A model generated the notes under the pieces. It had not been told where the DNA came from and searched no databases. It saw nothing but the letters and a program-made list of their open reading frames with translations. From positions 1 to 52,222 of the forward strand of contig WHTU01000020.1 of NCBI GenBank assembly GCA_009377575.1: a DNA stretch of 52,222 bases, written 5' to 3'. The stretch is from Nitrososphaeraceae archaeon (GTDB lineage Archaea > Thermoproteota > Nitrososphaeria > Nitrososphaerales > Nitrososphaeraceae). Shown here piece by piece: positions 3,717 through 36,734 of the stretch (position 1 is its first letter; every line of letters begins with the position of its first letter). Both the position numbers and the translations under genes were made by a program.

Positions 3717-4022
3717 GACCAGTAGTATATTTCTTGGAGTATAAAAATGGGTAAGGGATCAAAAGTATACTTAGCTGCGTTACACAAAAATTGCAGAAGT
3801 CAGAACTTTTACTATCATGCTTTTTATGTATTTCACATAGTTAAAGGTGTAGGCATGATGAGGACTCCTTAGAGAAATTACTCCAAGATCCTGTGTTGCC
3901 TTTTCTAGAAGTAAACGAAAGACAATAATTGTAGGAGACCAAAGGACGCTATCAAAAAGCAAGTTCCTATCAAGATCAATAGATACTGTAGTCAGGAAGG
4001 ATGGATTCTTCATATGGAGAAA

Positions 4023-4099: not shown

Positions 4100-5248
4100 A
4101 TGAATGATAATTCAAATACTTTCACGTTCCAGATTGATGGAAATACCTTAACACTGAACAAATTAAATAAACAAATGGACAAACAGTTCGAGCTTATGTA
4201 CCGATATTACTTCTTTAAACAAAAGTTTGATATTGATTTGTTCAAGAAATCAGCTGTGAAATTCTTTGACGAATTTTCAGAGGTCAAGATACATGATAGA
4301 TTCTTTAACAATTTTACAATACTTTGGCAAATACTAATACAGAATGGTTCTTTCTTTTCTGCCGAACAGATATGGCAACTAGCAGTACAAATAGCTACAG
4401 AATGGGAGACACTAAATCAATCTAAATATAGAATACATAAGGGTGCTGCATATTATTTCTGGGCGGTAACCTGCATACTAAAAGAAGATCTAGAAAAAGG
4501 ATTCTTGTTAATGCATCAAGCCCTAGAGGAAGATAAGAAAAATAGGCCTAATGAATTAACTTATGCTCCTGCCCACGCATTCGTAAGACTTGATTACGAT
4601 CAACAAGAACAGTACTTTAGAAATAAAATTCTTGAAGTAACAGAATTCCTTGAACAGAGGTTAAAGCTGTATCAATCATCAAGAAATGGTGCCTTGTCCT
4701 TAGATCAATTGAAATCTGAATTTTTAGATAATAAAGACTTAATAGATGAGACATTTCTTTTCGTTTATCACCTATTTCACATTAAAAAGTTATTATCTGA
4801 GTCCAAACAGGGATTAACTCAAAATATATATGGATCGATACTAATGATGCAAATCATTTTCACATTTATTCTTGTAATAGATAATGCAATCAAGAAGAAG
4901 TACGAAAATAAAGATCCTCATAAGCAAGATCTAGTACATCTAGTAGAATTTCTTTCAAAGGAATCAAATCTTATAATAGACATAAGTAAGTTAAGAGAGA
5001 TTGGTAATAGAGCAAGTAATGATCTTCAATCGGTACTTATAGATCTTCTGAGCTTGAAGCCAATTTTTAAGAGTAGCAAATTAGAAGATATTGAAACTGA
5101 TATTGGGATTGTGTATGCTCTCAGAAATCCTGCCGCACACAAAATACGTGATAGGCCATTTATACATCAAAATTTCAAACAAATAGTAGATAGACTATTT
5201 AATGTATTCTTTCTAGCAATAGAAAAATTGTATATTGGAACAACATGA
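4100..5248 (+). CDS. Large helical protein with C-terminal HEPN motif
   Basis: The 382-aa protein is almost all helical. Residues about 115-150 (YYFWAVTCILKEDLEKGFLLMHQALEED) look TPR-like. Near the C-terminus, YALRNPAAHKI gives R-N-X3-H, the best form of the HEPN RNase signature (RNxxxH), followed by a long closing helix as in HEPN domains. This suggests a repeat-scaffold plus HEPN arrangement, possibly an RNA-targeting defence or stress protein. The N-terminal half is unrecognised. The direct repeats at 4023-4059 sit just upstream. RNase function is inferred from the motif. Confidence 0.6.
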   Translation: MNDNSNTFTFQIDGNTLTLNKLNKQMDKQFELMYRYYFFKQKFDIDLFKKSAVKFFDEFSEVKIHDRFFNNFTILWQILIQNGSFFSAEQIWQLAVQIATEWETLNQSKYRIHKGAAYYFWAVTCILKEDLEKGFLLMHQALEEDKKNRPNELTYAPAHAFVRLDYDQQEQYFRNKILEVTEFLEQRLKLYQSSRNGALSLDQLKSEFLDNKDLIDETFLFVYHLFHIKKLLSESKQGLTQNIYGSILMMQIIFTFILVIDNAIKKKYENKDPHKQDLVHLVEFLSKESNLIIDISKLREIGNRASNDLQSVLIDLLSLKPIFKSSKLEDIETDIGIVYALRNPAAHKIRDRPFIHQNFKQIVDRLFNVFFLAIEKLYIGTT

Positions 5249-14817: not shown

Positions 14818-15606
14818 CTATCTTAAGGGATTACGACGCCGAGCCCAATCAATGATTGAACCATCATACAATTTTACATTGTTATAACCAGCCTGTTTAA
14901 ATTGCAAATATTTGTGTGATGCTCTGGCTCCAGAATGACAATAGCATATGATCACTTTGTCTTTGCTAATCCGCTTCTCCTCAAAGTCTCTTTCTAGTTC
15001 CTCCTTACTCTTCATCATTTCACCATTAGGACCTAATCCTTCTTCCCAGTTATCTAATATCGAACCGGGGATCCTTGCTTGCATATGTTCTATGGATGTT
15101 CTAGCATCAACAATTACAGTACCAGAATGATTTTGTAGTTCTTTTGCTTTTATTATATCGGCATCAGCTCTAATCATGGAATTTATTTTTGACTTGAAGT
15201 GAACATTTTCGTTTGATTGTTTTTGGTTCGAAATTTGTCTGGTAATTGGGAATTCAGATTTTTGCCATTCATTAAATCCAACATCTAAGATTTTTACATT
15301 TGGTTGTCCATGATACATCAAAGTCCAAGCTATTCTAGCTGCTGATGGATCCATATATTCACCGTACACTACGACGATCTTATGATAATCAATCCCAAGA
15401 CTAGTGAAAACTTCTTCAGCCGTTGGTGCATCAATGACTAAGTTAGCTCCGTTAGGTGCCGTTGAAATAACATGCTCAACGGAAAGTGATAATGCATTCT
15501 TAATATGTCCAAATCTGTAAGGCATAACTCCTCTTGCATCTATAATAATTACATTAGGATCATCAAGATGGGATAAAAGCCATTTACTATCGACGGTTAC
15601 TATCAT
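14818..15606 (-). CDS. Two-domain sulfurtransferase (rhodanese/TST-MST type)
   Basis: Length and layout (262 aa, tandem rhodanese domains) match thiosulfate or 3-mercaptopyruvate sulfurtransferases, which move sulfane sulfur via a Cys persulfide. The C-terminal domain has the active loop CHSGARAS with Cys223; the N-terminal domain has YGEYMD at that position and is catalytically silent, as usual. Other landmarks are IIDARG, HIKNAL, and VDARTSIEHMQARIPGS. It heads a leftward run with a small ORF and hemD. Confidence 0.85.
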   Translation of the reverse strand: MIVTVDSKWLLSHLDDPNVIIIDARGVMPYRFGHIKNALSLSVEHVISTAPNGANLVIDAPTAEEVFTSLGIDYHKIVVVYGEYMDPSAARIAWTLMYHGQPNVKILDVGFNEWQKSEFPITRQISNQKQSNENVHFKSKINSMIRADADIIKAKELQNHSGTVIVDARTSIEHMQARIPGSILDNWEEGLGPNGEMMKSKEELERDFEEKRISKDKVIICYCHSGARASHKYLQFKQAGYNNVKLYDGSIIDWARRRNPLR

Positions 15607-16357
15607 ATATCATCCATACAATATATCGTCAGACAATAATTTAAATGATATTAACTGTGTTAAATTTCATTTTAAGGGGTTTTGTAATAAGATTGAATAG
15701 AACGTATTTAACCTCATGATAGGGTTTAAAGGTGAAGAATCTATATGATGATCTACTTGAATACCACATTACTAAAACAGGAAGACGAACACAAGGAAGA
15801 TTCGATTTTAGGAGTTCCTGTCTGTGGACTTAACTTTAGTACCCACTGTGGTTGATCAGGCTGGCTACACAGGAGAGATTCACTATAGAATCGGAGACCG
15901 AATGTATATAGAAAATGCTGACTAGGCTTCAGATATTGAGTATAATAAAAGAAGGCAAAATATCCCATTTTATTTCTTTCAATCTCAGTTGTTTCAGAAG
16001 CAATGTGATAATTTGTTACTAATAGAACATAGCAGATACAGTCATACATAATCATTTATTTCCTTTTAAAAAAAAACGTTATCAGATGGTTATAGAATAG
16101 ATGATAACTTATTATAGCAGCGAAAACGAGATCCCCCCTTTACATCGAATAGAGCTAGCCTTGGTCATGTTTGGAAAATTGATAGCTGTTACATGTTGTC
16201 AAAACGCTATTTTCATATCTGAAAAAGAGTTTCAGTGATCCGTTTGCAGCCATACCTTACGCTAGACTAGTAACTTATGGTTATGGTGATATAGATTGTC
16301 TAGAGAAGGTTTGGGCTTTACTTAATTTCAATTATTGTTATTACTACCAGAAACTAA
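15607..16357. other. Gene-poor stretch with a possible remnant
   Basis: No intact gene is seen. On the plus strand, 16187-16320 reads a protein-like segment in one frame (SFSDPFAAIPYARLVTYGYG, then DIDCLEKVWALL) without a start or family assignment; it may be a decayed gene. The minus frame at 15753-16055 looks random. Confidence 0.3.
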
Positions 16358-22752: not shown

Positions 22753-22940
22753 CCTGTTTCATATCTTTTCGAATCCATGAAGATCAGATGTCAGAGACAT
22801 TTTTAATCTTTGCATTTTGATATTGCGCGCAAAAATTGATGATAATGGTTAATATCATGTCATTATTTGTTAGGATTTATCTACGCATAACCTAATTCCT
22901 TCCAAAAAGGTTTAAGATTGATTCATCCATTGTAATAGTG

Positions 22941-23129
22941 ATGTACGTTTTAGTATGTCGAGAATCTGGCTTAGGTTGCGATTTTGTTATAAAAGGTAAA
23001 ACAAGGGAAGAGTTCTTAGAAAATGGTGCCGAACATGCAATTCAAAAACATGGTATGCGCACCGAAGATGTCTACTTGAATAGTATCCCAGTTAATCTGT
23101 TGTGTCATTCTTTTAACGAAGAAACCTGA
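22941..23129 (+). CDS. DUF1059 family small protein
   Basis: 62 aa with the family pattern CRESGLGCDFVIKG, then EEFLENGAEHAIQKHGM. Two Cys and a His-rich helix suggest a metal or redox role, which is unproven for the family. ATG 22941 directly follows an in-frame GTG. A GCGCGC palindrome at 22825-22830 lies in the shared upstream region with the secreted protein. Confidence 0.75.
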   Translation: MYVLVCRESGLGCDFVIKGKTREEFLENGAEHAIQKHGMRTEDVYLNSIPVNLLCHSFNEET

Positions 23130-23131
23130 GG

Positions 23132-23205
23132 TAACAGGCAGGTCGAGATAAAGGCAGGCGACCATGGAAGAAAGGTTGTAAGCCAATAGGGTCGCCCGCC
23201 TGTTA
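23132..23205 (+). ncRNA. Candidate structured RNA, copy 1 of 3
   Basis: Outer stem TAACAGGC (23132-23139) pairs with GCCTGTTA (23198-23205); inner stem GGCGACC (23157-23163) pairs with GGTCGCC (23190-23196). The loop contains GAAGAAAGG. The element is GC-rich in an AT-rich genome and directly follows the DUF1059 gene. Two further elements with the same GGTCGCC core lie at 36341-36413 and 36515-36575. It may be an independent RNA or a 3'-UTR structure. Confidence 0.5.
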
Positions 23206-23476
23206 TTCTGTGTAGGGCCGTCATAGTGAATGGATAGAAGTCAACCTTATTGCCATTTCGTTAATAGATCATATAGTGTTGCATACTGGTATATGCGGGC
23301 CTAAATAATAGAGTATTACTATTTTTCGCGCGCGCAATTAAAAGAAAAACGTACTAGATTGATTGAATTGTCACAAAGGATATTGAAAATGTTCATGAAG
23401 TCAATTATTTTTAACTAGTTGAACATGCTTCCGGGTCTAATAACCTTTATTTTATACCCAATGAACGTAAGTTCGA

Positions 23477-24082
23477 ATGCCACCGGACTACTGTAATAGA
23501 CACGTACAAAAATGGATGAATATATTTTCAGACGACGAACCTGATCTAATGGGTATGGAACTTGTCAGAGAATTTGACAACTTAACGAACAAATTCTACA
23601 GTATTTTTCATGATAATTTAATCGAGTCAGATGAAGGATCAGAGTTGTATTTAGGTATCAAAAGTGAGGTCTTTAGAGAGGAGGTATACGTTATACAATA
23701 CGATTCCGATTCCGTTGTCAGACCGAGAAAGGATACAAAAGTACGAAAAATTAGAAGAAAGGTCGGACCTGTATCTGTACCTGTAAAGAGGCGCTCTGAC
23801 AATGTTTCTCTGTCTGAAATCAGAGGGGTGGAACAGGATTCTTCAGAGGATATCATTGTTACTGATAAGAACGTCAAAATAGTGTCACAACTCCCTATTA
23901 ACAATAGAAAAGAAAATATCAAGGTTATTGCCTATGACGATAACTCTGTTACAATTTCCTATCTAAACGTTGAAGGAAAACGATGCACCCATACTTCAGA
24001 CATTCCGTATGATATTGACTGCGAGAATGCCAAGGCGACTTATAAAAATGGTATATTAGAGGTCAAATTTGATAGAAAATAA
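23477..24082 (+). CDS. Hsp20/alpha-crystallin-like protein
   Basis: 201 aa. The last ~75 residues (VKIVSQLPINNRKENIKVIA, ..SVTISYLN.., then NAKATYKNGILEVKF) match the small-heat-shock-protein alpha-crystallin domain, including the final 'A.y.nGiLev' strand. The N-terminal ~120 residues are acidic then Arg/Lys-rich and unrecognised; longer than a typical N-terminal arm. No C-terminal IXI motif. Probably an ATP-independent chaperone or a gas-vesicle-like GvpH relative. A CGCGCGCGC tract (23327-23335) lies upstream. Confidence 0.65.
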   Translation: MPPDYCNRHVQKWMNIFSDDEPDLMGMELVREFDNLTNKFYSIFHDNLIESDEGSELYLGIKSEVFREEVYVIQYDSDSVVRPRKDTKVRKIRRKVGPVSVPVKRRSDNVSLSEIRGVEQDSSEDIIVTDKNVKIVSQLPINNRKENIKVIAYDDNSVTISYLNVEGKRCTHTSDIPYDIDCENAKATYKNGILEVKFDRK

Positions 24083-24211
24083 ATAATCTGATATCGGTAC
24101 ATATTACTGATTCCTCTTGTTATTTCTGGCCTGTTTTTTCGCGAGCACAAATTCGTCAACAAACACAGAAAACTCTTATTCAATTGTGTTCTTTTAGTAT
24201 TACCAAAGAAC

Positions 24212-25092
24212 TTGCAATATTACATAGGATGTTCCGGATGGTCCTATTCATCCTGGCAAGGGCCATTCTATCCTAAGGGTATCGAAAATTCTAAGTGGCT
24301 AAAGTATTATTCAAGGGTCTTTGATTACGTGGAAATAGATTCTTGCTTCTACCGAATTCCTAATGAATTCATGGTTAGAAACTGGTACAAACGGACTCCT
24401 GACAACTTTCGAATTATTGCAAAATTCCCTAAAGTCATAATGCATGTTAAGAGACTATCGAATTTCGACATGGATCAACTAAATTATTTCTTTGAGTCTA
24501 TCTCCGAATTAAAGGAGAAATTACTGGCGTTATTAATTCAACTACCTCCGTCCATACAGATTGTCGAAGGTCTGGAGGCTCTCAGTAATATCCTTCCGTA
24601 TCTTCACGGACACTTCAGATATGCAGTTGAGGTAAGACACAGATCTTGGTTTCAGGATCTTGCGTACAACTTCTTTGCCAAGAACAATATGTGCATGGTT
24701 TGGAGTCAACTTGCGGATATGCGCACTCCTCCAATAGTTACCTCAGATTTCGTTTACGTTAGTTTAATTGGAGACAGAAGTATTCAAGAAAAGGATTTTG
24801 GTACTATTCAAATCGATAGAATAAAAGAAATGAAAAAAGTTGCGCACAATTTTAAGGGCGATTCAAATGAAGAAATTTGTCAAAAGTTCGATTTGCCATC
24901 GTGGCCGCGAATAATCATTATGCTGGCTTCGGTACTGGCACCGTGAATATTTTTAGACAATTGATTGGCCTGGAGGAAGTGAAATGGGGAGATGAATATA
25001 TCTCAAATGATCTGGAAAAGGATGATGATCCAAATATGAATAAAAGTGTTATTAGGACTAAACAAACGAGTCTGTCTGACTTTTTCAAATAA
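24212..25092 (+). pseudogene. DUF72 protein with a -1 frameshift
   Basis: DUF72 (YecE-like TIM barrel) features are plain: YIGCSGWSYSSWQGPFYP, YVEIDSCFYR, FAKFPK-like region and RHRSWF. The first frame stops at 24944-24946, but the family's terminal IVAANNHYAGFGTGTVNIFR is encoded in another phase from about 24886. Adding one A to the AAAA run at 24882-24885 restores a full 290-aa protein. This is either a real frameshift, a sequencing error, or slippage. TTG 24212 is the only usable start. Confidence 0.8.
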
Positions 25093-25187
25093 ATTCAACG
25101 AGGATATTGGGACCCTTCGTGATGAAGGGATTTGTCGTTACTTGTTTATTGATATACTTAAATTTCAATTATTCTTTATAATTATGT

Positions 25188-25502
25188 ATGACAAAACATA
25201 GGCCAAAATCTTTCGAGTTCACTATTAATAGCATTCCTACAGATTTACAAAAATTATCTGGTCTATTCAGTAATACACACGTATACACATGTGGTAATTG
25301 TAATCACCCAATAATCTTTCCGTATTTGACTCCCCGACCACCCAGATGTAAAAAATGCGGTGATGATATAGATTGGTCTGGGCATGAAGAGAAGGGAGAC
25401 AAAAGACCTAAAATATGTCCTCAATGCAAAACACAGTTTGCCCCGGAGGATGAATTTTGTGACAAGTGCCCAAGTAAAGTTAATCTAATGTGGAGTGATT
25501 AG
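25188..25502 (+). CDS. Protein with paired zinc ribbons
   Basis: 104 aa containing two zinc-ribbon units: CGNC...CKKC (residues about 35-57) and CPQC...CDKC (about 78-94, PQCKTQFAPEDEFCDKC). The N-terminal ~30 residues are helical and unrecognised. Probable structural zinc; may bind nucleic acid or partner proteins. It is bracketed by the DUF72 gene and a degraded second copy of that gene's 3' end. Confidence 0.65.
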   Translation: MTKHRPKSFEFTINSIPTDLQKLSGLFSNTHVYTCGNCNHPIIFPYLTPRPPRCKKCGDDIDWSGHEEKGDKRPKICPQCKTQFAPEDEFCDKCPSKVNLMWSD

Positions 25503-25504
25503 AG

Positions 25505-25581
25505 AATGGGCTGCCACGGCCAATATTTCCAGACAATTAAAAGGTCTGGAAGAAATGAGATGTGGAGACGAGTACCATGGG
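25505..25581 (+). pseudogene. Degraded copy of the DUF72 3' end
   Basis: In one frame this reads TANISRQLKGLEEMRCGDEY, matching TVNIFRQLIGLEEVKWGDEY of the DUF72 gene at about 24937-24999, and the DNA is similar as well. Only some 25 codons remain. It shows a partial duplication flanking the zinc-ribbon gene. Confidence 0.7.
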
Positions 25582-25796
25582 ACAAGACGATGGTGTTCCT
25601 AAGAACAAAAATATAATTAAGATTGAGACAATCCTATATGATGTTTTCATCAATACCAAGAAGCGATCCTGTTCTTTAGGATGCTAACAAAAGGTATATC
25701 TTTAAGTTTGATCTTTTAAATAACGGAATATGTTTTAAGAACCGGTAACGGCACGGATACCCTTAGGCCCAAGTCAATCTTATCCCTTTATTTAGT

Positions 25797-26049
25797 TTAG
25801 TTTACCTTTGCAATATCTATTTTGGCTACAATTTGTTGGAACTTAGACTCCATATCCTCGCGTATGGCTTGTATCTCTTCTCTGTGCTTAATATTTAGTC
25901 TTTCGAGTTCGCTATTCTTCTTGGTGAGTCTGACTACTACTTTACGTAAACGATTTTCTTCTTTGATGGTCAGGTTGTCAATTGCCTTAACATATTCGTG
26001 TAGTACATAATTCTCTTCTGGTTTGAAGTAATGATCGTCCAGGCCTATA
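25797..26049 (-). pseudogene. Integrase C-terminal fragment
   Basis: The frame reads DDHYFKPEENYVLHEYVKAI, DNLTIKEENRLRKVVVRLTK and then a Glu/Lys coiled-coil tail to TAA. This is the typical end of thaumarchaeal tyrosine recombinases ('eYlkavd.LTI.eEnrL'). It has no start and overlaps by a few bases the stop of the DUF899 gene, which probably invaded or replaced the upstream part. Confidence 0.55.
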
Positions 26050-26803
26050 CTTCATAGTTCCTTGGTTCGAGCCAGCTATGAAATGTCTTGCCATATTCAT
26101 CATGGCGGCGGACCCAGAATTGAGGGAAGTCGTGACCGGCCTCATCCCGACCTTTGGGAACTAGGTCAAGGTAATGATATGCCACATTCAACATATCGAT
26201 GCCACGCGCATAAGCTGAATAGGTGTGGAACACGCGACCTCTGGAGTCCTTGAAAAATACACTGACTCCTTCTCGCTCCGGGCCTGGGTTTGCTTGAGCA
26301 ATATAGTTGTAGAATGCTTCATTCTTGGCTAACACTTCCTGTGTGAAAGACACGTGGTAGTCAAAATTGAAATCTGTATCGTAGGAAGAGAACCACTTGA
26401 AATCCCAACCCATCCGTTTTTGGTACGCCGCCAGCTTATTGTATGGAGCCCGAGAAACAGCAATCATGGTCACATCTCTGTGGTTCAAGTGCACAATAAT
26501 TCCATTGAAATTGTCCGCCCAAAAGGAACAATGCAAACATCCATCCTCCCAGCTTGGATCAAACATAAAGTGATAGACTATTAGTTGGCTTCTTCCATCA
26601 AAAAGTTCTGAAAGAGTCTGTTTCCCATTCTGTCCTTCAAAGACATACTCCTTATTAACGGCTACCCACGGTAGATCGCGTCGTTGCTGGCTAAGTTGAT
26701 CGCGCAAAGCAGTGAACTCCCTTTCCTTCTTTAGAAGCGCCCTGCGAGCCTCGACCCATTCTTCTTCGGAAACAATCTTGTGATCTTTTAGGGGGTCAGT
26801 CAT
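26045..26803 (-). CDS. DUF899 thioredoxin-like protein
   Basis: The protein shows the DUF899 pattern: WVEARRALLKKEREFT, LPWVAV, the active-site-like CLHCSFWAD (thioredoxin-fold CxxC), DVTMIAVSRAP, GWDFKWFSSYDTDFN and a final HDEYG. Family members are predicted peroxidase/dithiol-disulfide proteins in the cytoplasm. Length (252 aa) is normal. ATG 26803 is preferred over TTG 26827. Codons look more GC-rich than neighbours, and bacterial homologues are common, so acquisition by transfer is likely. Confidence 0.82.
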   Translation of the reverse strand: MTDPLKDHKIVSEEEWVEARRALLKKEREFTALRDQLSQQRRDLPWVAVNKEYVFEGQNGKQTLSELFDGRSQLIVYHFMFDPSWEDGCLHCSFWADNFNGIIVHLNHRDVTMIAVSRAPYNKLAAYQKRMGWDFKWFSSYDTDFNFDYHVSFTQEVLAKNEAFYNYIAQANPGPEREGVSVFFKDSRGRVFHTYSAYARGIDMLNVAYHYLDLVPKGRDEAGHDFPQFWVRRHDEYGKTFHSWLEPRNYEV

Positions 26804-27079
26804 TATTTTCTCTTCCTCTTTTGGCAATAAATTTCTTCTAATAGTTTAAATTATTATGACAGATACTATGAACCAAATCAACTCTGTTGTCGTTCCCCTG
26901 TCCAAAGATCAGAACCTGTTTCCTCCGGGGAATACGAGAAGAATCAGTCAGCAGCCAAACTCCGTCTTTATGATTTTCATTCATAATTGCTCTCATCAAA
27001 ATTAAGGCATAAATATTATTTAAATCCTCGTTTCAAAAATCATAATAAAACTCAACTTCCACATTGATACTTACATAGT

Positions 27080-27436
27080 TTAGCTACTTTCTCCCTATAT
27101 CCTACCCTGCTGTATCCTCTTGTGTTTAAGATACTCATGTCTCTTTGGCTATAGTTGGATGCTCTTGTCCTGCATAGCTGGGGATATTAGTATCGCTGCG
27201 CTTAGCTACGTTACTATTGTCCATGCTTCTAGTACTCTCTTCAAGTCCTTGCGTTTCTTTAGCTTGTTTGCTGTTAATCCTTCTGTTTGCTGTGTCATTT
27301 CCTACTCCACGAATGCTAATTGTACCTCTGTATCTACTCCAGCCTTCTTTACTACCGTAAATATTCCTACATTGTTAGCGTCTATCTGCTTAAGGTATAT
27401 GCGTGTTGGATGGCCGTCAATGTTTGCCGTTGCTAT
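27080..27436 (-). pseudogene. 119-codon frame interrupted only by four TAGs
   Basis: From an ATA at 27434-27436, 4 nt after GGAGGTG, the frame reads TANIDGHPTRIYLKQIDANN, GIFTVVKKAGVDTEVQLAF and later a Lys-rich stretch (LTANKLKKRKDLKRVLEAW), IVT/LSAAILISPAMQ. It is broken by TAG at 27302-27304, 27206-27208, 27149-27151 and 27095-27097 before a TAA at 27080-27082. No TAA or TGA occurs in between. TGG-to-TAG and ATG-to-ATA changes would explain all the defects. A row of tiny genes is the alternative. No family recognised. Confidence 0.4.
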
Positions 27437-28200
27437 GCTACACCTCCTTTTTCGGCCATTGTAAATCTAATTATAATATAGTTACTCATGTTACCACATA
27501 TGAATAACTCTGAGTTGCTTATAGTAACTATTTCCTTTTAGCCAAATAAGGCGTAGTTCCCCTTACTCTCTGGCTGTAAGATACCTGATGTCTAATAAAA
27601 GAAAAGCACAGGTTATGTATGATGTCTTATGCTATTAGGCTAAGGCGAAGTGATCAATACCGTAAGTAATGATTCAGTACCTGGGCCAACAATAAGCGGT
27701 ATACCTTGAGTACTAACTCCAACAGCAGATGTACAGTATATTTTTAATCTGTTAGGAGAATTTCGAGCCTCGTAATATAATTATTGCCGTTACTGACCGA
27801 CCATCCCCTCATCTTTCTGTTGATGTATATGAAGATGTATCGTTAGATCAGATGTTTTGCATTGACTGACGATCGAATAATCAGCTCAAGCACTCTGTTG
27901 CACCTCCAGAGTCTTCTGAATATTCAGACGTTGAATCTCTCGTCTTGTTAAAGTCCTGCTTGCCGAATGTGTCCTAACCTTGTTCATTCTGAGAGAAATG
28001 TATGAATCTAGTTCTCTTGCTTTAGTACCTGGGTTCTCTAAGCGTTCATCCAAGTCTAGAACCGTCTTAAAAATGTCATATCGTAAGCGGCCAGAAATCT
28101 AGAGTACTGCAATAATGACCCACATCCATGCTGGATTTATGATGATTTACGAATAGACAACTCTTTTTGTCTAGGGTCAGATTCACTTTAATACATCGCA
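27437..28200. other. Decayed stretch without intact genes
   Basis: A plus-strand frame at about 27762-27962 reads NFEPRNIIIAVTDRPSPHLS, VDVYEDVSLDQMFC and, after a TGA, SVAPPESSEYSDVESLVLLK before TAA. It looks like the ruin of a gene but is not recognised. The rest has scattered stops and no start-stop structure of interest. Confidence 0.35.
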
Positions 28201-29244
28201 GTGTGTAAAGGGTTCGTGTCAAGTCACAGACTTGTTAGGAAAGATCATCTAGTCCTTTTTGCTGTCATATCTACTCTTGTTATCGCAAGCTCATCAATTA
28301 GTAACTATGGCACCAATAAATTTGTGTATAGTCAGTTAGATCCGGACAATTCCAACATAACGAATTTGGTGGATATACAGGATATCCCATTAGAAAAAGT
28401 TCGTGTTGGAGAGATAGATATTGCGTACAAGGTCTTTGGTAAAGGTGACCCTATTTTACTTTTCAATGGCGCTTCTGAAAGTATGGGTGGCTGGGACCCA
28501 TCCTTTCTAAGGAGTCTTTCTTCAAATCACACAGTAATTGTGTTTGATAGTCGTGGAGTTGGAAATACAACAACTGGTTCCACACCATATTCTATCCAGC
28601 TACTTGCAAACGATACGGCTGGTTTGATGGATGCTCTGAAAATACAAGAGGCAGATGTTCTTGGATATTCCCTCGGAGGACACATAGCTCAGCAATTTAC
28701 AGTTACCTATCCAGAAAAGGTTAACAGGCTCATACTTGTTGCTACAACATGTGGTGGAAAAGATGGTATACCTAAACCATCTGAGTTTATAAAATTGCAA
28801 TCCGAAATTGTAAACAAATCTCTAAATAATGTTTCTATTTCTCAGGAAGAGATGAAATCGCTTGTATCTGCTTCATTAGGATCGGGATGGATAAGACTGC
28901 ATCCTGAATCTGTTGAGAACATTCCAGATTTACAACAAGCGAAGCCTAGTATTTCCCTTGATGTAATGAAGAATCAGATGAACGCAGGATTTGCTTGGGA
29001 GGCAACCAACTGGAATGGTGCTTGTGACGAGCTTGCGAAAATAGCCAAACCCACGTTGGTCATAACTGGAACAGATGATAATCTCTACATCCCGCATGCA
29101 AATTCTTTAGTCATTGCAGGAAAAATACCAGGGGCCTGGCTTGTACAGATCAAAGATGCTGGTCACGCAGTAATGGATCAATATCCGGATGAGATCAGTA
29201 AGATATTGCAAACATTTCTATCGACTACAAATGAAAATAGTTGA
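28201..29244 (+). CDS. Exported alpha/beta hydrolase
   Basis: 347 aa, GTG start. An N-terminal hydrophobic segment (LVLFAVISTLVIASSSI) acts as signal peptide or anchor, so the enzyme is extracellular. The fold is a standard alpha/beta hydrolase: GDPILLFNGASESMGGW (oxyanion region), VFDSRGVGNT, nucleophile elbow GYSLGG with Ser157, ITGTDDNLYIP (Asp) and DAGHAVM (His). It likely cleaves an ester or related bond; substrate unknown. Resembles the secreted hydrolases expanded in soil thaumarchaea. Confidence 0.85.
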   Translation: MCKGFVSSHRLVRKDHLVLFAVISTLVIASSSISNYGTNKFVYSQLDPDNSNITNLVDIQDIPLEKVRVGEIDIAYKVFGKGDPILLFNGASESMGGWDPSFLRSLSSNHTVIVFDSRGVGNTTTGSTPYSIQLLANDTAGLMDALKIQEADVLGYSLGGHIAQQFTVTYPEKVNRLILVATTCGGKDGIPKPSEFIKLQSEIVNKSLNNVSISQEEMKSLVSASLGSGWIRLHPESVENIPDLQQAKPSISLDVMKNQMNAGFAWEATNWNGACDELAKIAKPTLVITGTDDNLYIPHANSLVIAGKIPGAWLVQIKDAGHAVMDQYPDEISKILQTFLSTTNENS

Positions 29245-29588
29245 CCAGGTATGAAGGATGAATACGATGCAGCGATTGCATATCTATCAGTTACTATTCT
29301 TAGGACCTTAAACAATCCAATTAAATTAGTCGATTAATCGTGTCGGACTTTGACTCTGACATATTATTCCGGCAGAAGCAATTAACAGTAGATCAATTGT
29401 CCAGGTAGGATCCCCATAAACAGAAATATTATTTAATTAGTAAGCCAAATATATCTCTGATACTGGTAATGAGCCCCTTTACCTACAGGAATCTAACCCC
29501 CCTTGGACCCACAGTAATATTAGTTCTCAAATAGGATTCTCGGACCCGTAAAAAGAGAGAAACCAAATTGAGAATGTAACATTTAGAC

Positions 29589-29723
29589 GTGGGGAAGGAA
29601 TCAGAATCCTACGATTTATTCGTATTCGCTATTAATGCTGAACAGACCAGGGAAAAATATATTTCAAGATTAGAAAAATTTCTAGAAATTATTGGTATTG
29701 ACCAAGAACAGAATCTAGACTAA
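29589..29723 (+). pseudogene. Integrase N-terminal fragment
   Basis: GTG at 29589 opens a 44-codon frame with ESYDLFVFAINAEQTREKYI, SRLEKFLEIIGID, the typical SAM-like core-binding start of thaumarchaeal tyrosine recombinases. It stops at TAA 29721-29723, inside the 3' end of the oppositely oriented 29689-29988 gene. The catalytic half is absent. It is the third integrase piece in the window. Confidence 0.6.
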
Positions 29724-29988
29724 CACCTTGTATACCTGAGATCGCCTTTTTCAAATCATCAAGGTTCATTGCAGGAGGAATTTCTACAATGGTATCGAAT
29801 CCCTGAAATAAAGGTTCTGCAATTGCCGGAATCATATCTGGACGCGGCAGATCCAAAACAAGGACCATAGTTCTGTTCCCATTCACCTCAGTAAAGTATG
29901 CGGCCTCAAAATTGAACTTCTTGGTGAAGTCTTCGGTAGTCTTCAAGAAATTAGGATCTTTGACCATCTGTTGCCGGCAGTTGTCCAA
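29689..29988 (-). CDS. Small alpha/beta protein, DUF3303-like
   Basis: 99 aa from TTG 29988. The core (FEAAYFTEVNGNRTMVLVLD then MIPAIAEPLFQGFDTIVEIP and MNLDDLKKAISGIQ) fits a ferredoxin-like fold seen in DUF3303-type small proteins. The first strand expected for the fold is missing (an in-frame TAG lies just upstream of the TTG), so the gene may be 5'-truncated. Overlaps the integrase N-terminal fragment by 35 bp. Confidence 0.5.
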   Translation of the reverse strand: MDNCRQQMVKDPNFLKTTEDFTKKFNFEAAYFTEVNGNRTMVLVLDLPRPDMIPAIAEPLFQGFDTIVEIPPAMNLDDLKKAISGIQGVSLDSVLGQYQ

Positions 29989-30237
29989 ATCATTGCTCTA
30001 GCTAGGACTCTCATTTAAGTCCCAAAGTTGACCTGCGTATCTTAATAATTAATCTTTCTAACCGTGGTATTTGGAATGTTATGTAAGTAATCTTACACAT
30101 AAATCTTTAGAAACTCTCTAACTTATGTTCGGTTAATCGGAAAGAGGTAGACAAATCATTCTGCCTTTTTTCTAATAAACGATAATAGAATTGGTAATAG
30201 TTGATAGAGGGGGGAGACCTGAAAAGTCTGATAAGTA

Positions 30238-30858
30238 ATGAGCGCGCGCATATTTACTCCCGATATAAAGGTAGAACATGTAATATCATTTAGTGATGCG
30301 GTATTTGCCTTTGCCATAACTCTTATGGCACTCACAATCGATATACCTGATTTACCCCCAAATCTTAGTCAATCAGAACTTTTACAGAGATTAGATGACT
30401 TTTATCCCCAGTTCGAAGATTATATTATTAGCTTTGCCGTTATCGCAATATTCTGGATTTCATATCATCAGGTATTCGACCATATTAAAGGTTCGCATAT
30501 CTCGATGGTTTATCTTAATCTTTTGTTTTTGTTATTCATAACTCTACTATCGTTAACAACTACATTTGTAATAAACTACGCATCGTATCAGATACCATAT
30601 ATTATTTACTGCATAATAGTAATTATGACAAGTTCATTACTTGTGTTAATATGGTGGTATGCCACAAAGGAGTACCGATTAGTAGACAAAGGCATGAATC
30701 CACTATTCATAAAGGGCACCTTCTTTGCACTTCTGTCTATACCCATAATTTTTAGTATTTCCATAATTATTTCATTTATTGATCTTGACATCGCCCAATA
30801 TTTCTGGTTAGGCATTATTCCAATGAATGTCCTGATTAGATACAAGTATAAACACTAG
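30238..30858 (+). CDS. TMEM175-like (DUF1211) membrane protein
   Basis: The signature FSDAVFAFAITLMALTIDIP at residues about 18-37 marks the DUF1211/TMEM175 potassium-channel family; the FSD motif lines the pore in characterised members. About six transmembrane helices follow, the expected single-repeat size for prokaryotes (206 aa), which assemble as tetramers. ATG 30238 overlaps a GCGCGCGC tract (30242-30249) encoding Ser-Ala-Arg. Confidence 0.85.
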   Translation: MSARIFTPDIKVEHVISFSDAVFAFAITLMALTIDIPDLPPNLSQSELLQRLDDFYPQFEDYIISFAVIAIFWISYHQVFDHIKGSHISMVYLNLLFLLFITLLSLTTTFVINYASYQIPYIIYCIIVIMTSSLLVLIWWYATKEYRLVDKGMNPLFIKGTFFALLSIPIIFSISIIISFIDLDIAQYFWLGIIPMNVLIRYKYKH

Positions 30859-30907
30859 ATGACATGTCGAAATGAATGTCTTGATACGGTTTACTATGGG
30901 TCTTTAG

Positions 30908-31288
30908 ATGCCCATTTTTATCTGTAACAGATGCGCGCGCAAATTGATAATGAAGTACGGTCGGCATCAAGGTTTAAACATTTCAGGCTATGGGCCCCTT
31001 GGACCTACTGCTGGTGCAGACATGATATACACTGGTAAACGAGCAATACTTTTTGGTGGTACTGATGGCATTGTACTAGGCCACAATAATTGGGATTGGA
31101 GAGGTAACCTGTGGACACAGCGCCAAAATATGGGTCCCCCCAGCAGAGGGTTGCACTCAATAGTGTATGATAGCGACAGAAATCTAGTAGTTCTGTTCGG
31201 TGGGATTGATGATTCTAGAAATTTTAGACACATGGGAGTTTACAGTAAAGAATTCTGGCTGAGGAAATTGATTATGTTTGTCGATTAG
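30908..31288 (+). pseudogene. Kelch beta-propeller fragment
   Basis: Residues about 35-105 carry two blades of a kelch/galactose-oxidase-like propeller: YTGKRAILFGGTDG..., WDWRGNLWTQRQNMGPPSRG, LHSIVYDSDRNLVVLFGG. A full propeller needs five to seven blades and usually a signal peptide, so this is a relic. The first ~30 residues are encoded partly by the GCGCGCGC tract (30933-30940) and are probably not original. Confidence 0.65.
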
Positions 31289-31377
31289 ATAGTTGAATGA
31301 CGTATTCAATGCGTTACTGTATCTGTGGTCATATCTCTATAAACTTTAATAATTCGCTATTTTAATACAGCCTAATT

Positions 31378-31518
31378 ATGCATGTAAATGTGGACGAGGG
31401 TAAAATTGAGATAGATATTACAGATAGCTCCATTGGATATTACCTTCTAAGTTATCTTCGTGGGACTCTTAGTTACCTTGCAACCAAAATAAAAACGTGG
31501 AAGGAGGAAATAAGATAA
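31378..31518 (+). CDS. 46-aa hypothetical protein
   Basis: ATG 31378, ending TAA 31516-31518. The product (MHVNVDEGKIEIDITDSSIG, then YYLLSYLRGTLSYLATKIKT) has a strand-rich acidic first half and an amphipathic aromatic helix. It ends 48 bp before the GNAT gene and may be co-transcribed with it. Composition looks coding; family unknown. Confidence 0.4.
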   Translation: MHVNVDEGKIEIDITDSSIGYYLLSYLRGTLSYLATKIKTWKEEIR

Positions 31519-31566
31519 AGTGAAAGAATTTAATAACCAGTACTTAAGAAGGTTTCGTACAAACAT

Positions 31567-32460
31567 TTGGACCGTACAGAGTATGCCTTTAAATTGAGGC
31601 CTGGAAGGATAGATGATGCTGATACGGTAGGAAAGATAATTTTTGAGGCATTTTCAGCGATCGCAGACGAACATGGTTTTCAACGCGAATTCCCAACTGT
31701 TGATACCGGCAGAGGCCTAGCATCTTCTTTTCTATCTAATCCTGGATTCTATTCTGTAGTCGCTGAAGGTACTAGTGGTGAGAATAAAGATAGGCTTGTT
31801 GGGAGCAACTTTTTAGATGAACGCTCAAATATCGTAGTGGGAGTGGGACCAATAACAGTTGATCCAAAATATCAAAATAAAGGTACAGGCAGGCAGTTAA
31901 TGATTGATGTATTGGAGAGAGCTAAGATCAAAAACTACCCGGCGGTACGTTTGCTTCAAGCTTCTTACCATAACCGGTCACTAGCTCTCTATGCTAGTCT
32001 TGGATTTGAAGTAAGGGAGCCAATCTCAACCCTGCAGGGCAAACCAATTCGAGAAGTTATTCCTGGGAGATCTGTACGTCCAGCAACTGAGTCTGATGTT
32101 GGGTCATGCAATGCGATCTGCAAAGCAGTTCATGGTCATGACAGAAATGGCGAGCTAAGAGACAGTATAAAGCAAGGAAGCGCTGAAGTGGTTTTGCACG
32201 GAGATAAAATTACAGGTTATACTTGTGGATTAACATACTTTAACCATTCAGTAGGTTTAACCAATGATGACCTCAAGGCTCTGATCTCCTCAGCAACCGA
32301 TTATTATGGAGGACCAGGCATTCTAATTCCTACTCGAAACACCCAACTATTTCGCTGGTGTCTGAACAATGGACTGAGGTTAGTTCAGCAGCTTACCCTT
32401 ATGACAATTGGATTGTATAATGAACCTGCAGGCTTCTATATGCCTTCGATTCTATATTGA
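31567..32460 (+). CDS. Tandem GNAT N-acetyltransferase
   Basis: 297 aa from TTG 31567. The N-terminal GNAT domain is complete: acceptor-side LRPGRIDDADTVGKIIFEAF, VGVGPITVDPKYQNKGTGRQLM (motif A, Q/RxxGxG) and LYASLGFEVREP (motif B). The C-terminal half (VRPATESDVGSCNAICKAVH...) resembles a second, degenerate GNAT lacking a clear acetyl-CoA loop. Such double-GNAT proteins acetylate small amines or antibiotics; substrate not readable. Preceded by the 46-aa ORF. Confidence 0.8.
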   Translation: MDRTEYAFKLRPGRIDDADTVGKIIFEAFSAIADEHGFQREFPTVDTGRGLASSFLSNPGFYSVVAEGTSGENKDRLVGSNFLDERSNIVVGVGPITVDPKYQNKGTGRQLMIDVLERAKIKNYPAVRLLQASYHNRSLALYASLGFEVREPISTLQGKPIREVIPGRSVRPATESDVGSCNAICKAVHGHDRNGELRDSIKQGSAEVVLHGDKITGYTCGLTYFNHSVGLTNDDLKALISSATDYYGGPGILIPTRNTQLFRWCLNNGLRLVQQLTLMTIGLYNEPAGFYMPSILY

Positions 32461-32535
32461 GGATCATTAAAAAAATTCTTTTCTGATGTAAACGACCTAA
32501 CTCTAACAGCATTGTATGAGCAGTAGGTTAGATGG

Positions 32536-32918
32536 TCAGAATGATGCTCTCAGTGAATATATCAACGCAAAGTTGCCAAGGTGGTTAGAGTCATTTACTA
32601 TTGTCTCTGCATCTACAGAATTAGTGACAGTAATATTGCCTAGATTAATCTTGTCAGCAAAGTTGCATCACAGTCATTAGAAGCTCTAAACATTACTTCA
32701 CCATGACCATTTGCTATTCTGTTAGTCCACCATATGGCATAGATGTTATCTCCAGAGATTGCTACCGACGCTTTTTAAATTGTCATCGATCTTTGTCCAT
32801 CTTCTGCTTTAAATGCATCTTCTTGTTGTTGTTCAAGTAATAACATTGAAGTTGCCAAGGCTATCGCTATCGCTATCCCAAGAGTCATTATGACACTCAA
32901 AACTAATCTTGTATTCAT
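32536..32918 (-). pseudogene. Decayed secreted beta-propeller (BNR/sialidase-like) gene, copy A
   Basis: ATG 32916-32918 opens a signal peptide (TRLVLSVIMTLGIAIAIALA). The frame hits TAA at 32775-32777, continues with VAISGDNIYAIWWTN and VMFRAS, then needs a phase shift to read FADKINLGNITVTNSVDAE. The repeat pattern (AISGDNxYxxWW...VMFRASxDGGxTFxDKINL) is that of secreted BNR/Asp-box proteins common in thaumarchaea. Homologous to copy B just upstream. Confidence 0.7.
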
Positions 32919-33009
32919 CAAATTATAGTGAAAATGGGAGTAATATTTGAGCTGTCAACTTGATTGTGAGCGACTGGATTCTCTCAAGTCTCTCCGGTTT
33001 TATTGTATT

Positions 33010-33448
33010 TTAACTAGGTCCAATAGTCCCATTCATAGATAGCTTTAGTATCGGACCAAATGTCTGACCATTATCGTTACTCAGTCTAGCCATTGGTTCG
33101 TTACTTGTAGCATTACGCTCCCACCAGCTCACCACTCCGTTATTAAAATCTGAAGCAATTTCGGCATCCACTGAGTCCGAGTTGGTACTGTTGCTTAGAT
33201 TTATTTTATCGGTAAATGTAGCGCCACCATCATCTGATGCTCTAAACATAACTTCGTCATCACCGTCATGTTTGTCCACCACGCAATATACGTATCATCT
33301 CCCGATATGGTTACTGGGGTTTTCGCAAAATTTGATGGGAAGAATGCTTTTCCATCTATTGATTGCTGTAGCCACGTACCAGGTACTACTATTATTATTG
33401 CTCCAAGAGTTATCATTATGATAACACTCAATACTATCTTTTATTCAT
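33010..33448 (-). pseudogene. Decayed secreted beta-propeller (BNR/sialidase-like) gene, copy B
   Basis: Same architecture as copy A. One base is missing right after the start (ATGAATAAAAGA...), the next frame begins at TTG 33431, reads a hydrophobic leader, TPVTISGDDTYIAWWTN, then shifts phase near 33275 to HDGDDEVMFRASDDGGATFT, DKINLSNSTNSD, VVSWWERN and SNDNGQTFGP before TAA. At least two frameshifts, and only about 140 residues remain of a protein that usually has several blades. Confidence 0.75.
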
Positions 33449-33730
33449 TAAATATTAAAAAATGGGCTTAGTATTTATAAGATCGTTCCATAGAACCCCG
33501 ATTCCGAATAATTTCACGCTACCCACGCAGAATCCCCCGTGGGGGTTGTTCTCCAACATACTCGATGTACTATAATGGTCTTATATGGGGACAAATACCA
33601 TTAAATGCCAGTGTCTATATAATCTTCGTGACAATGTAAATAAAATATGTGGGTTGTCAGATAATAAGAGAACCAAAAAAAGATTTGGTTTTTTGAACCC
33701 ATTACAAGTGTTGTGTGCGTCTTAGTTTTC

Positions 33731-33973
33731 TTATGGGAATGATTGGTCTGCTGCTGTAGTTACTACGTTCTCATCGCCTTGAATCTGAGATGCAGTGTTT
33801 TGACATCCAACATTCTCTGGCAAGAATCCATTGCCACAGTCGTTTGCTTGTGAGATTGCTTGACTCTTTCCATACTTCTTCTTACCTGCAAACGCATCTT
33901 CTGTCGCAAGTGCTGTTGCACCAATCAGCATTACTGCCATCGCTGCTACTATGAGCATATATTTAGTATTCAT
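33731..33973 (-). CDS. Small secreted protein
   Basis: 80 aa with a clear signal peptide (KYMLIVAAMAVMLIGATALA, then TEDAFAG) and a mature part containing a Lys-rich patch, QAISQANDCGNGFLPENVGC (one Cys pair) and a polar tail. I recall a paralogous family of such small secreted proteins in Nitrososphaera-like genomes. Function unknown. Confidence 0.7.
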   Translation of the reverse strand: MNTKYMLIVAAMAVMLIGATALATEDAFAGKKKYGKSQAISQANDCGNGFLPENVGCQNTASQIQGDENVVTTAADQSFP

Positions 33974-34488
33974 TCTTAGCAGCAGAGCGAGAGTTTAGCT
34001 TATCTACATTAGGCAAATCAAGACCCGTGCAAATATCTGATTTTTTTTCTATAAAAACGAACAAAAAAATTAATACATGGCTAAGTATTCTTCTTCGGAC
34101 TATGCTTACTTTACTGGCATGATCTAGTAAACTTCCAAACTATGGTTCATGTAAGAATTACTCAAAAAGGGATCTAGCGATGCCTAACGTGGCATTATTA
34201 TTTGCTATCTTACTAACTAAAGTTAATCAGTTATAGCGTGAATCAAACTTATCTTTTTGATACTGAGATTAAATATGGATATTGCAAATGCTAACTTGAG
34301 TAGAATTGGTATTGGGGTAAGGCCTCCAGATCTGTAATCCTCCTCATTGTTCGATTCCTGACTACTCACTTTTTGTATGCTAATATGTTTATCCCTTATG
34401 CTGGTAATGTTTTATAAAAATTTGCACATCTGAAAATTGTCTTTCCTGACAAGGCTTTTAAAAAAAATAAGTACTGCAATCGATATGC
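33974..34488. other. Intergenic stretch
   Basis: No gene is supported. The segment includes poly-A/T tracts (34044-34070) near the promoter of the secreted protein and no clear repeats. Confidence 0.4.
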
Positions 34489-34605
34489 CTAGGCAGTCAC
34501 AGTTAATGGTCTTTCTTCCAATTTCTCTATTTCAATATTTTTCTTCTGCTTTATTGGCTTTATTACAGCCTTTTCTAGTTCTGGGAATTCATAGTTGAAA
34601 CACAT
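34489..34605 (-). CDS. 38-aa hypothetical protein
   Basis: ATG 34603-34605 to TAG 34489-34491. The product (MCFNYEFPELEKAVIKPIKQ, then KKNIEIEKLEERPLTVTA) is a plausible short helical peptide with an N-terminal Cys and a regular charge pattern. It is divergent from the Cys-rich mini-gene at 34678, sharing a 72-bp upstream region. Too short for a family call. Confidence 0.45.
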   Translation of the reverse strand: MCFNYEFPELEKAVIKPIKQKKNIEIEKLEERPLTVTA

Positions 34606-34677
34606 TATCACTATAATGCTTTTTATCGCTTAAAAAGACTTCGTGTGCTTTTTATATCTTCGGTCATTATAGTTTAT

Positions 34678-34815
34678 GTGGATAACTGCAAGCACTGGGG
34701 TTGTACTCTAAAGAATAATACATGTAGTGGTTGTGTTGTAGTTATCTGCAGATTTTGCTTGAAAGAGCCAATGGATTGTAGATGTGATGATAGGGATTAT
34801 TGTTGCAATCAATGA
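34678..34815 (+). CDS. 45-aa protein with ten cysteines
   Basis: From GTG 34678: cysteines at 4, 9, 16, 19, 24, 27, 34, 36, 42 and 43, arranged as CSGC, CRFC, CRC and a final CC pair. That density can bind two or more zinc ions or a metal cluster, like a metallothionein or a double zinc ribbon. TTTTTATATC at about 34649-34658 is a TATA candidate. No signal peptide. Confidence 0.5.
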   Translation: MDNCKHWGCTLKNNTCSGCVVVICRFCLKEPMDCRCDDRDYCCNQ

Positions 34816-35083
34816 TTGATTATTTCATGAGTTTCAATCGGAAAAACAGCACCATATTTAGAAACACAAGCCATTCTCACTTAGTAATGGTACTTGGACA
34901 AAACTACCTTTTCTGAGGCTTCAGCACATTAAATATAAAACAAAAACAAGCAGGAGTTTGGCTTAAACAGTTTGCCTCATTTAGTCCTTATGGGGGACAA
35001 ACCTAAAGCAACCATACTCCCCCTGACAGAATCATATTACAATGCTTTTATGATCTTTAAATTATAGTGTATTGTGCTCCGTA

Positions 35084-35281
35084 ATGCCCTGTCGAAATAT
35101 ATGTACAAGAATAGGTTCAAGTTTCGGATATTATAGCACAGGAATAAAGTATTGCAGAAGGTGTGAAATATACCTTTTTCATGACGGGTATATCTGCCCT
35201 TGTTGTAAACGTCCTTTGCGAACGTCTCCAAATAATAGAAGGGGTAAGGAAAAATTACGTACAAAGCAAGTGATACAGTAA
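35084..35281 (+). CDS. Small zinc-binding protein of a thaumarchaeal family
   Basis: ATG 35084. The 65-aa product has CRNIC, then GIKYCRRCEIYLFHDGYICP with CPCC, and a basic end (RPLRTSPNNRRGKEKLR). I recall closely similar small proteins (a 'C..RC.IF...DG..CPCC...LR' pattern) throughout ammonia-oxidising archaea. The basic tail suggests nucleic-acid or ribosome contact. The upstream TTG (35072) is less likely as start. Confidence 0.6.
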   Translation: MPCRNICTRIGSSFGYYSTGIKYCRRCEIYLFHDGYICPCCKRPLRTSPNNRRGKEKLRTKQVIQ

Positions 35282-35488
35282 AACGGTTCAAAAAAGACTA
35301 AGATCTTCCAGAGTCTGAAGTCATAATCTTCTTTCGTGTAGTTCCACTATAAGGTAATATGTTGTTTAGACTAATAAAATGTACCATTCCATTATATTAG
35401 ATATGTAAGACGATTCTATGCAACGCTTTACCAGGCAATTTCATACCATAGCAACAATTTCATTAGCGATATCTAATCCCTTTCACGC

Positions 35489-36127
35489 TCAAGACTTTGT
35501 TACTCTTGAATTAGTAACACTACGATCCTTAATTAATTGTGGAGTATATATCTCCTGGATTGCATCTTTACAACGCTTTAGTATGTCGGTGTTAGTTTCC
35601 AATTTCTGTAGGTATCCACCAGTTCTGAATACAGAATTTCTGATATCTTGCATGAACTGAGTAATCCCTAATGTAAAAACCTGATCGACATGCACTATCC
35701 AGCCTGGTCTGACAGTTACTTGGTCTGGACAATCTTGGAGGGCCAAGTGATCAGGAGTATATTCATGAACATATTGCCAAGCCACAGTCTTGCCTTTGTA
35801 TGAAGAAAGTGGTCCTGGTTGCGCTAAGTGCACGAGTTTATGTCTAAAGACCTTGAGAATTAAGTCTATCTGTTCTGGAGTGTAACCCATAAACAATTTC
35901 ATATATTTTCGAGAATTCCTCGAAGTATCGGCTTTGTCAGACGCCTGTCCCGCCTGTAATGCGCCTAATAGATCTACACAAGATACACACCAAAGTATTG
36001 CAGGCATGGGCGCAAAAGGTCGTTGCAAACAATGCTTAACGTCCTTCTGTAAAGAGTCCATTTTATCCGTGACAAATTTTCTTACGAAATCCAGTTCGTC
36101 CGTGTTTGACTGATTATCTTTATTCAT
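35489..36127 (-). CDS. Uncharacterised helical protein with RX4H (HEPN-like)
   Basis: 212 aa, mostly helical. The segment LILKVFRHKLVHLAQPGPLS contains R-X4-H in the form seen in HEPN-like and related 'RhgLvH' proteins; before it is a conserved-looking YMKLFMGYTPEQ. A beta-rich patch follows, then a helix. Third RX4H protein in this window. It borders the hairpin-rich noncoding island. Catalysis is inference only. Confidence 0.5.
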   Translation of the reverse strand: MNKDNQSNTDELDFVRKFVTDKMDSLQKDVKHCLQRPFAPMPAILWCVSCVDLLGALQAGQASDKADTSRNSRKYMKLFMGYTPEQIDLILKVFRHKLVHLAQPGPLSSYKGKTVAWQYVHEYTPDHLALQDCPDQVTVRPGWIVHVDQVFTLGITQFMQDIRNSVFRTGGYLQKLETNTDILKRCKDAIQEIYTPQLIKDRSVTNSRVTKS

Positions 36128-36340
36128 AAGGTAATATCACTTATAATGGATTAAATAAATATGAAATAGTTAGAAAAAGATAGACCGTTTTGCTTCTACG
36201 AATTTTAAGGAATGGATATGTAAGAATAAATCTATCTATATGACTGCAGAAGTTTTTAGGATCCTATCTTAAGATACAACCCATTACATGCCTGCTCTAA
36301 TGGGAGGAATATTTGTCTCAGAATAAGAAATTAATTTTAC

Positions 36341-36413
36341 AGTAAGAGGTAAAAGAACGACGACATGAGAACTTGCCTTCGAAGAAAGGAACTGATTGGT
36401 CGCCGCCTCTACC
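36341..36413 (+). ncRNA. Candidate structured RNA, copy 2 of 3
   Basis: AGAGG (36345-36349) pairs with CCTCT (36406-36410), and CGAC (36361-36364) with GTCG (36399-36402) inside the GGTCGCC core (36398-36404). The loop again contains GAAGAAAGG. Outer stem sequence differs from copy 1 but pairing is kept. Confidence 0.42.
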
Positions 36414-36514
36414 CTAACCCTGTGCAGGTTTATTTTGCCAGACTTTGTAGTCAAAGTTAGCTTTGCGTTTTAGCATAAAAGACATTCCGGAACTTGGTTA
36501 TCCTTACTAAAAAT

Positions 36515-36575
36515 AGGTAGACGACCATATGAGGGTCATGCCAGACTCGATGATTATGGTGTAGGTCGCCTACCT
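36515..36575 (+). ncRNA. Candidate structured RNA, copy 3 of 3
   Basis: AGGTAGACGACC (36515-36526) pairs with GGTCGCCTACCT (36564-36575) with one A-C mismatch. Inside, CCATA pairs with TATGG and GTC with GAC, giving a long layered hairpin. It shares CGACCAT and GGTCGCC with copy 1. Confidence 0.5.
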
Positions 36576-36652
36576 AATGATATTACGTGTGTCAAATAGA
36601 CTCTGTTTGAATCTGCAGTAGTTCGCCGTAGTGCGGCCGCTGAATGTACAAT

Positions 36653-36715
36653 AAAGTATAAAAAAAAGCTCTAAAACTTGTGTTTGCAAGTGATTGCTAC
36701 GGTTTTTTATACTTT
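36653..36715. repeat. 13-bp perfect inverted repeat
   Basis: AAAGTATAAAAAA (36653-36665) and its exact complement TTTTTTATACTTT (36703-36715) flank 37 bp that contain a smaller hairpin (ACTTG/CAAGT). It could be the ends of a tiny mobile element, a terminator-like hairpin, or a cruciform. Confidence 0.6.
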
Positions 36716-36734
36716 CCAATCGATAGTATATGTG

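Follow-up and report, generated by a model that had tools for sequence, protein, structure and literature searches.

The window, a 52,222-nt stretch of contig WHTU01000020.1 from a Nitrososphaeraceae archaeon, contains three hairpins, elements 1 to 3, each assigned to a putative small-RNA unit (w1, w2, and w3, respectively). The archaeal origin of the window is supported by a TFIIB gene within it, and a tRNA scan of the window returned none. The sequences and pairings that the original prediction had listed for the three elements were all present. The positions of the features are given in Table 1.

Table 1. Features of the window around the three hairpin elements (window coordinates) and bacterial look-alike palindromes (by locus).
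Feature	Position	Strand	Basis
DUF1059 small protein gene, convergent with putative RNA unit 1	22941..23129	+	PF06348, E 9.4e-9
Distal duplicate of the 3' arm (CTCGACCTGCCTGTTA on the minus strand)	23132..23149	-	Sequence; pairs with TAACAGGC (minus strand, 23198-23205)
3' hairpin of putative RNA unit 1 (w1), GGCGGGCGACC...GGTCGCCTGCC followed by TTTAT	23152..23201	-	R2 match in the window's genome (44.2 bits, E 5.2e-8)
Promoter-like element CTATATGATCTATTAACG of unit 1, class ATGATCTA	23259..23276	-	Alignment; class motif 12/76
3' hairpin of w2, degenerate (GGGTAGAGGCGGCGACC.../GTCGTCG..TTTTACCTC)	36341..36413	-	Flank homologous to units of C312 and C314
Upstream motif GATAACCAAGTTCCGGAATGTCTTTTATG of w2, class TTCMGGAA	36474..36502	-	Invariant blocks in alignment
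3' hairpin of w3, GGTAGGCGACC...GGTCGTCTACC, then TATTTTTA	36508..36575	-	R2, 40.4 bits, E 5.6e-7
5' domain of w3 (GCGGCCGCACTAC..., small hairpins)	36576..36640	-	Aligned with six paralogous units; fold
TATA-type promoter-like element TTTTTTATACTTTATTGTACA of w3	36646..36666	-	Alignment; motif 15/76
GGTAGNCGACC...GGTCGNCTACC palindromes, Planctomycetaceae Ncb351_bin65	L107, L109, L113, L120, L123, L127, L129, L131, L138, L139		
GGTAGNCGACC...GGTCGNCTACC palindromes, Hymenobacter lucidus	L118, L137		
GGTAGNCGACC...GGTCGNCTACC palindromes, Phocaeicola coprophilus	L108, L110, L115, L116, L128		

Element 1 can form two stems. The outer stem TAACAGGC/GCCTGTTA described in the original prediction does pair, but it involves a locally duplicated arm, the distal copy of the 3' arm, and it is in competition with the family stem, GGCGGGCGACC/GGTCGCCTGCC on the minus strand; the same layout recurs in C6/L009. 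Homologues of the w1 hairpin were found at C266, C353, and C323 and in three sister species. A K-turn seen in the sequence of one C266 copy was discarded, being absent from the aligned other copies. Besides the window copy, a DUF1059-like ORF lies before the hairpins in C266 and, as a fragment, in C6. The DUF1059-like ORFs of the window (22941-23129), L007 (14764-14950), and L009 (~850-924) end, convergently, within a few bases of three hairpin units, which suggests that ORF and RNA unit were duplicated together.

Elements 2 and 3 belong to two different putative RNA units arranged head to tail on the minus strand (36666-36340). The first, of the TATA/GCGGCCGC type, ends in element 3, and the second, of the TTCCGGAA type, ends in element 2. 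The w3 hairpin has a near-identical paralogue in C323/L051. Neither of the covariance models described below (R1 and R2) detected the w2 hairpin in the window, and element 2 is treated as a degenerate member because it was assigned by flank homology and minus-strand folding, not by a model.

Using element 1 as the query, we found five more sites in the same genome. Contig C266 carries three of these, the first of which comes immediately after a DUF1059-like small ORF, an arrangement like that of element 1. Covariance model R1, built from five close copies, was searched against 61 genomes; it had matches in three further species of the genus and in no other genus, with element 3 a borderline match in the window. 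Inspection of the model matches showed that hairpins of one type occur clustered. A stem scan independent of the model recovered dozens of copies in 0.29 Mb of loci, whereas three shuffled windows gave none and the full set of reversed loci gave 3. A second covariance model, R2, comprising 24 sequences, matched ~30 distinct places in the window's genome at E ≤0.1 and ~42 when weaker matches, to E 10, were included; the three elements of the original prediction are thus real, but they are not the whole set. Each of the four sister species gave 8-19 R2 matches, some of which represent both strands of one hairpin. The compiled set contained 76 distinct hairpins, which share the core GGTAGRCGACCA, a variable loop of ~10-35 nt, TGGTCGYCTACC, and then a T-run. 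These counts are lower bounds, since the search of relatives used strict filters and scored the best candidates alone. The units occur singly or in arrays within long intergenic gaps. In L094 (C312), two copies of a segment that carries different RNA units lie within 2.5 kb (2550-2862 and 4724-5064); arrays can therefore grow by segmental duplication.

The family is restricted to one genus and is not general to thaumarchaea: it was present in 5/5 genomes of the genus, and R2 had no match in 96 other relatives. The covariance-model search proposed in the original prediction thus yielded further homologues with covarying stems, as expected of the structured RNA family it had read from the conserved core and compensated stems, but within the genus and not beyond it. 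The family is previously uncatalogued. Rfam 15 gave no match at the gathering score or weaker for the window and five array loci and none at E ≤5 for window positions 36300-36720, and no description of such a hairpin family was found in the open-access literature.

Because the stems are near-palindromic, the strand of the units needs to be demonstrated. The original prediction had read the elements on the plus strand, where folding compared with shuffled sequences gave z values of -4.6 for element 3, -3.1 for element 1, and -0.2 for element 2; on the minus strand, z was -2.7 for the element 3 unit and -2.6 for element 2 with its flank. Orienting the 76 hairpins solely by which arm was followed by the longer T-run gave 74 G·U against 27 A·C pairs (p 3e-6, an optimistic value because the copies are related and relatedness was left uncorrected). 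In this orientation, the T frequency was 0.67, 0.71, and 0.58 at positions +1, +2, and +3 past the hairpin, and no matching excess of A preceded it. The A·C "mismatch" in the inner stem on the plus strand is a G·U pair on the minus strand. Because the T-run orientation favors G·U over A·C, the RNA strand of all three window elements, as read from the sequence, is minus. A plus-strand RNA was rejected on the basis of the G·U/A·C asymmetry, the T-run asymmetry, and the upstream motifs. On the minus strand, the GAAGAAAGG loop previously noted as shared by two elements corresponds to the pyrimidine stretch CCTTTCTTC.

Between homologous pairs, divergence was 10-13% in the arms, 20% in the loop, 21% upstream, and 30% downstream. 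Arms paired better with their own partners than with swapped ones (9.95 vs 9.02 of 13, sd 0.135), although this result and the covariation of the 3' hairpin are inflated because the copies were found partly by pairing; this selection has less influence on the tests of the 5' hairpin and of T-run orientation. In the T-run orientation, the loops contained 34% T, 27% C, and 14% G; they were 62% pyrimidine overall, and 50 of 60 were more than half pyrimidine. The word TTCAT, which was chosen after looking and is complementary to AUGAA, occurred in 11 of 52 loops compared with 3.2 expected. An anti-Shine-Dalgarno role for the loops was ruled out, CACCTCC being absent from them.

Of the hairpins with enough flank, all but one (73/74) were located outside ORFs of ≥100 aa; the gaps that hold them span 550-3950 nt. 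The family has a G+C-rich hairpin followed by a T-run on one strand, as in intrinsic terminators, and the hairpins could be solely terminators of neighboring protein-gene transcripts. We consider this improbable: the distance from the end of the upstream co-directional ORF to the hairpin was 146-1466 nt, with none at ≤145 nt (ORFs were called mechanically at ≥100 aa, so that small genes such as DUF1059 were uncounted), and terminators of this kind would have no need for sequence-conserved arms, tandem arrays, or a linked 5' hairpin. The hairpins may instead be terminators of the RNA units themselves.

One of three upstream motifs, at a nearly fixed distance (~55-87 nt), was carried by 39 of the 76 units; the other 37 had none of the three. 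The TATA-type motif TTTATAnWnTRTT was found in 15 of the 76, mostly 74-87 nt upstream (0.6 expected; 1 on the wrong strand), and the ATGATCTA motif in 12 (1.0 expected; 0 on the wrong strand), 52-83 nt and mostly 67-83 nt upstream. The TTCMGGAA motif, mostly 54-68 nt upstream, was many times above expectation but gives no strand information because it is near-palindromic. In a search of 61 genomes, the TATA-type motif also occurred a few nucleotides before ORF starts, both in the window's genome and in other genera, and hence it resembles a general promoter. Archaeal TATA boxes lie ~27 nt before the transcription start, which places the predicted start ~55 nt upstream of the shared hairpin; in subfamily C, this is approximately the first base of a second, 5' hairpin. 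This 5' hairpin showed five pairs with compensatory change and 94% of cells paired, and no shuffle was equal to it. A model of the 5' hairpin retrieved held-out copies to E 7e-14 in 5/5 genomes of the genus and had no match in 96 other relatives; the held-out copies covaried, in an alignment fitted to the model. Alignment A5 of this hairpin comprises L049, L048, L100, L099, L076, L085, L047, and L092. Its apical loop is strongly conserved (TAAATCACTCAT core) while the stem covaries, making the loop a candidate binding site.

Dispersed palindromes can also arise as mobile DNA repeats (REP/REPIN- or MITE-like), in which a single-stranded DNA hairpin is recognized by a transposase and spreads by transposition. 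The family resembles REPs and REPINs with GTAG or CGTC tags in its dispersed intergenic palindromes, dozens of which have GTAG in the arm, in its GTAG/CGTC letters, and in its G-T stem pairs (PMC3733652), and CGTC-tagged REPs without a dedicated transposase have been reported (PMC3733652). Look-alike GGTAGNCGACC..GGTCGNCTACC palindromes recur in a Planctomycetaceae MAG, Hymenobacter, and Phocaeicola. Mobile repeats retain a small chance, given that the copies are paralogous and scattered, but we regard them as unlikely. Y1/RAYT (PF01797) was absent from 5/5 genomes of the genus, whereas control genomes were positive. GTAG is paired inside a longer, 12-bp stem rather than forming a terminal tag beside a short palindrome (alignment A3), and the arms are kept while the loops and flanks differ strongly. 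Unlike REPs and REPINs, the units are promoter-linked, keep their motifs at a fixed distance, with two of the three confined to one strand, and carry G·U and T-run strand asymmetry and a linked second hairpin. The bacterial palindromes use the same letters with generally shorter loops; they may be REP-like, convergent, due to chance, or related in some other way. The bare arm pattern also occurred in five viral contigs (GC content 0.47-0.66), where the matches look like chance.

The conserved arms, variable loops, and mostly same-direction arrays, such as the hairpin run in ~1.1 kb at C325, would also fit integron attC-type recombination sites, in which a single DNA strand folds and the spacers would be cassettes. 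We strongly disfavor this explanation: the arm consensus GGTAGRCGACCA / TGGTCGYCTACC contains no GTTRRRY/RYYYAAC cores, the spacers of 60-250 nt contain promoter-like motifs and no ORFs, and the order of neighbors is kept between sister species (L045/L046 and L099/L100).

We consider it probable that the hairpins form the 3' ends of intergenic genes for small non-coding RNAs of ~110-125 nt, which together make up one multigene family; this judgment covers the RNA-gene reading and not the loop-pairing or protein-partner step. The family itself, its strand asymmetry, motif spacing, and covariation, and its restriction to one genus are established at the level of sequence; from the promoter-like motifs, the T-runs, the strand asymmetry, and the covariation, we infer transcription. 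Such a family would probably comprise more than 40, and at least 30, small-RNA genes in one archaeal genus. In a typical unit, a promoter-like element would be followed by a 5' domain that varies and is often structured, and then by the common 3' hairpin and a T-run. RNA polymerase would start ~27 nt after the TATA-type box and stop at the hairpin and U-run, producing discrete RNAs, and the hairpin would terminate and protect the RNA while holding its G-poor, pyrimidine-rich loop open. The loops of different members could base-pair with mRNAs at purine-rich leader or start regions; alternatively, one RNA-binding protein could recognize the conserved arms and hold the members of the family. Our proposal that the hairpin is a 3' terminating or protecting module, with a loop available for an mRNA or a protein partner, is tentative, and its role in ending transcription is assumed, because archaeal terminators need no hairpin. 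A genus-specific regulon, with dozens of diverse sRNAs whose common 3' hairpin is read by a dedicated RNA-binding protein and whose pyrimidine loops pair with different mRNA start regions, seems rather unlikely; if true, it would be an archaeal counterpart of Hfq-type 3' handles.

The small RNAs of this archaeal group are very poorly known. A large uncatalogued structured-RNA family would offer an entry point to post-transcriptional control in a little-known lineage, and the common 3' hairpin would offer a handle with which to recover the protein partner and targets. It also raises the question of whether a common archaeal 3' RNA module is used as bacteria use Hfq-bound terminators. Like the intrinsic terminators with U-tails of bacterial sRNAs, the family combines a 3' hairpin and U-run common to otherwise different RNAs with pyrimidine-rich loops; unlike them, it occurs in an archaeal host, and its arms are conserved in sequence, beyond pairing. 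Among archaeal sRNAs of the Methanosarcina mazei and Haloferax type, we know of no large paralogous family with one sequence-conserved 3' hairpin in arrays, a contrast for which direct sequence comparison was made through Rfam, with no match. The units are similar to archaeal intergenic sRNAs such as M. mazei sRNA162 (PMC3510493) and those of Haloferax (PMC5892119) in being short, intergenic, and structured, with loops that could pair with mRNAs.

Two further repeats were observed. Palindromes similar to TTTTGCGCGCAAA, a possible regulator site, recur close to w1-type units, where they precede the hairpin by roughly 100-150 nt (L007 ~15140-15155, 15352-15365, and 15917-15932; window ~22823-22837 and 23322-23340). 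L007 also contains, at 3641-3749, about seven or more tandem copies of the 11-nt repeat TTGAACGGCGG, which is unrelated to the hairpins.
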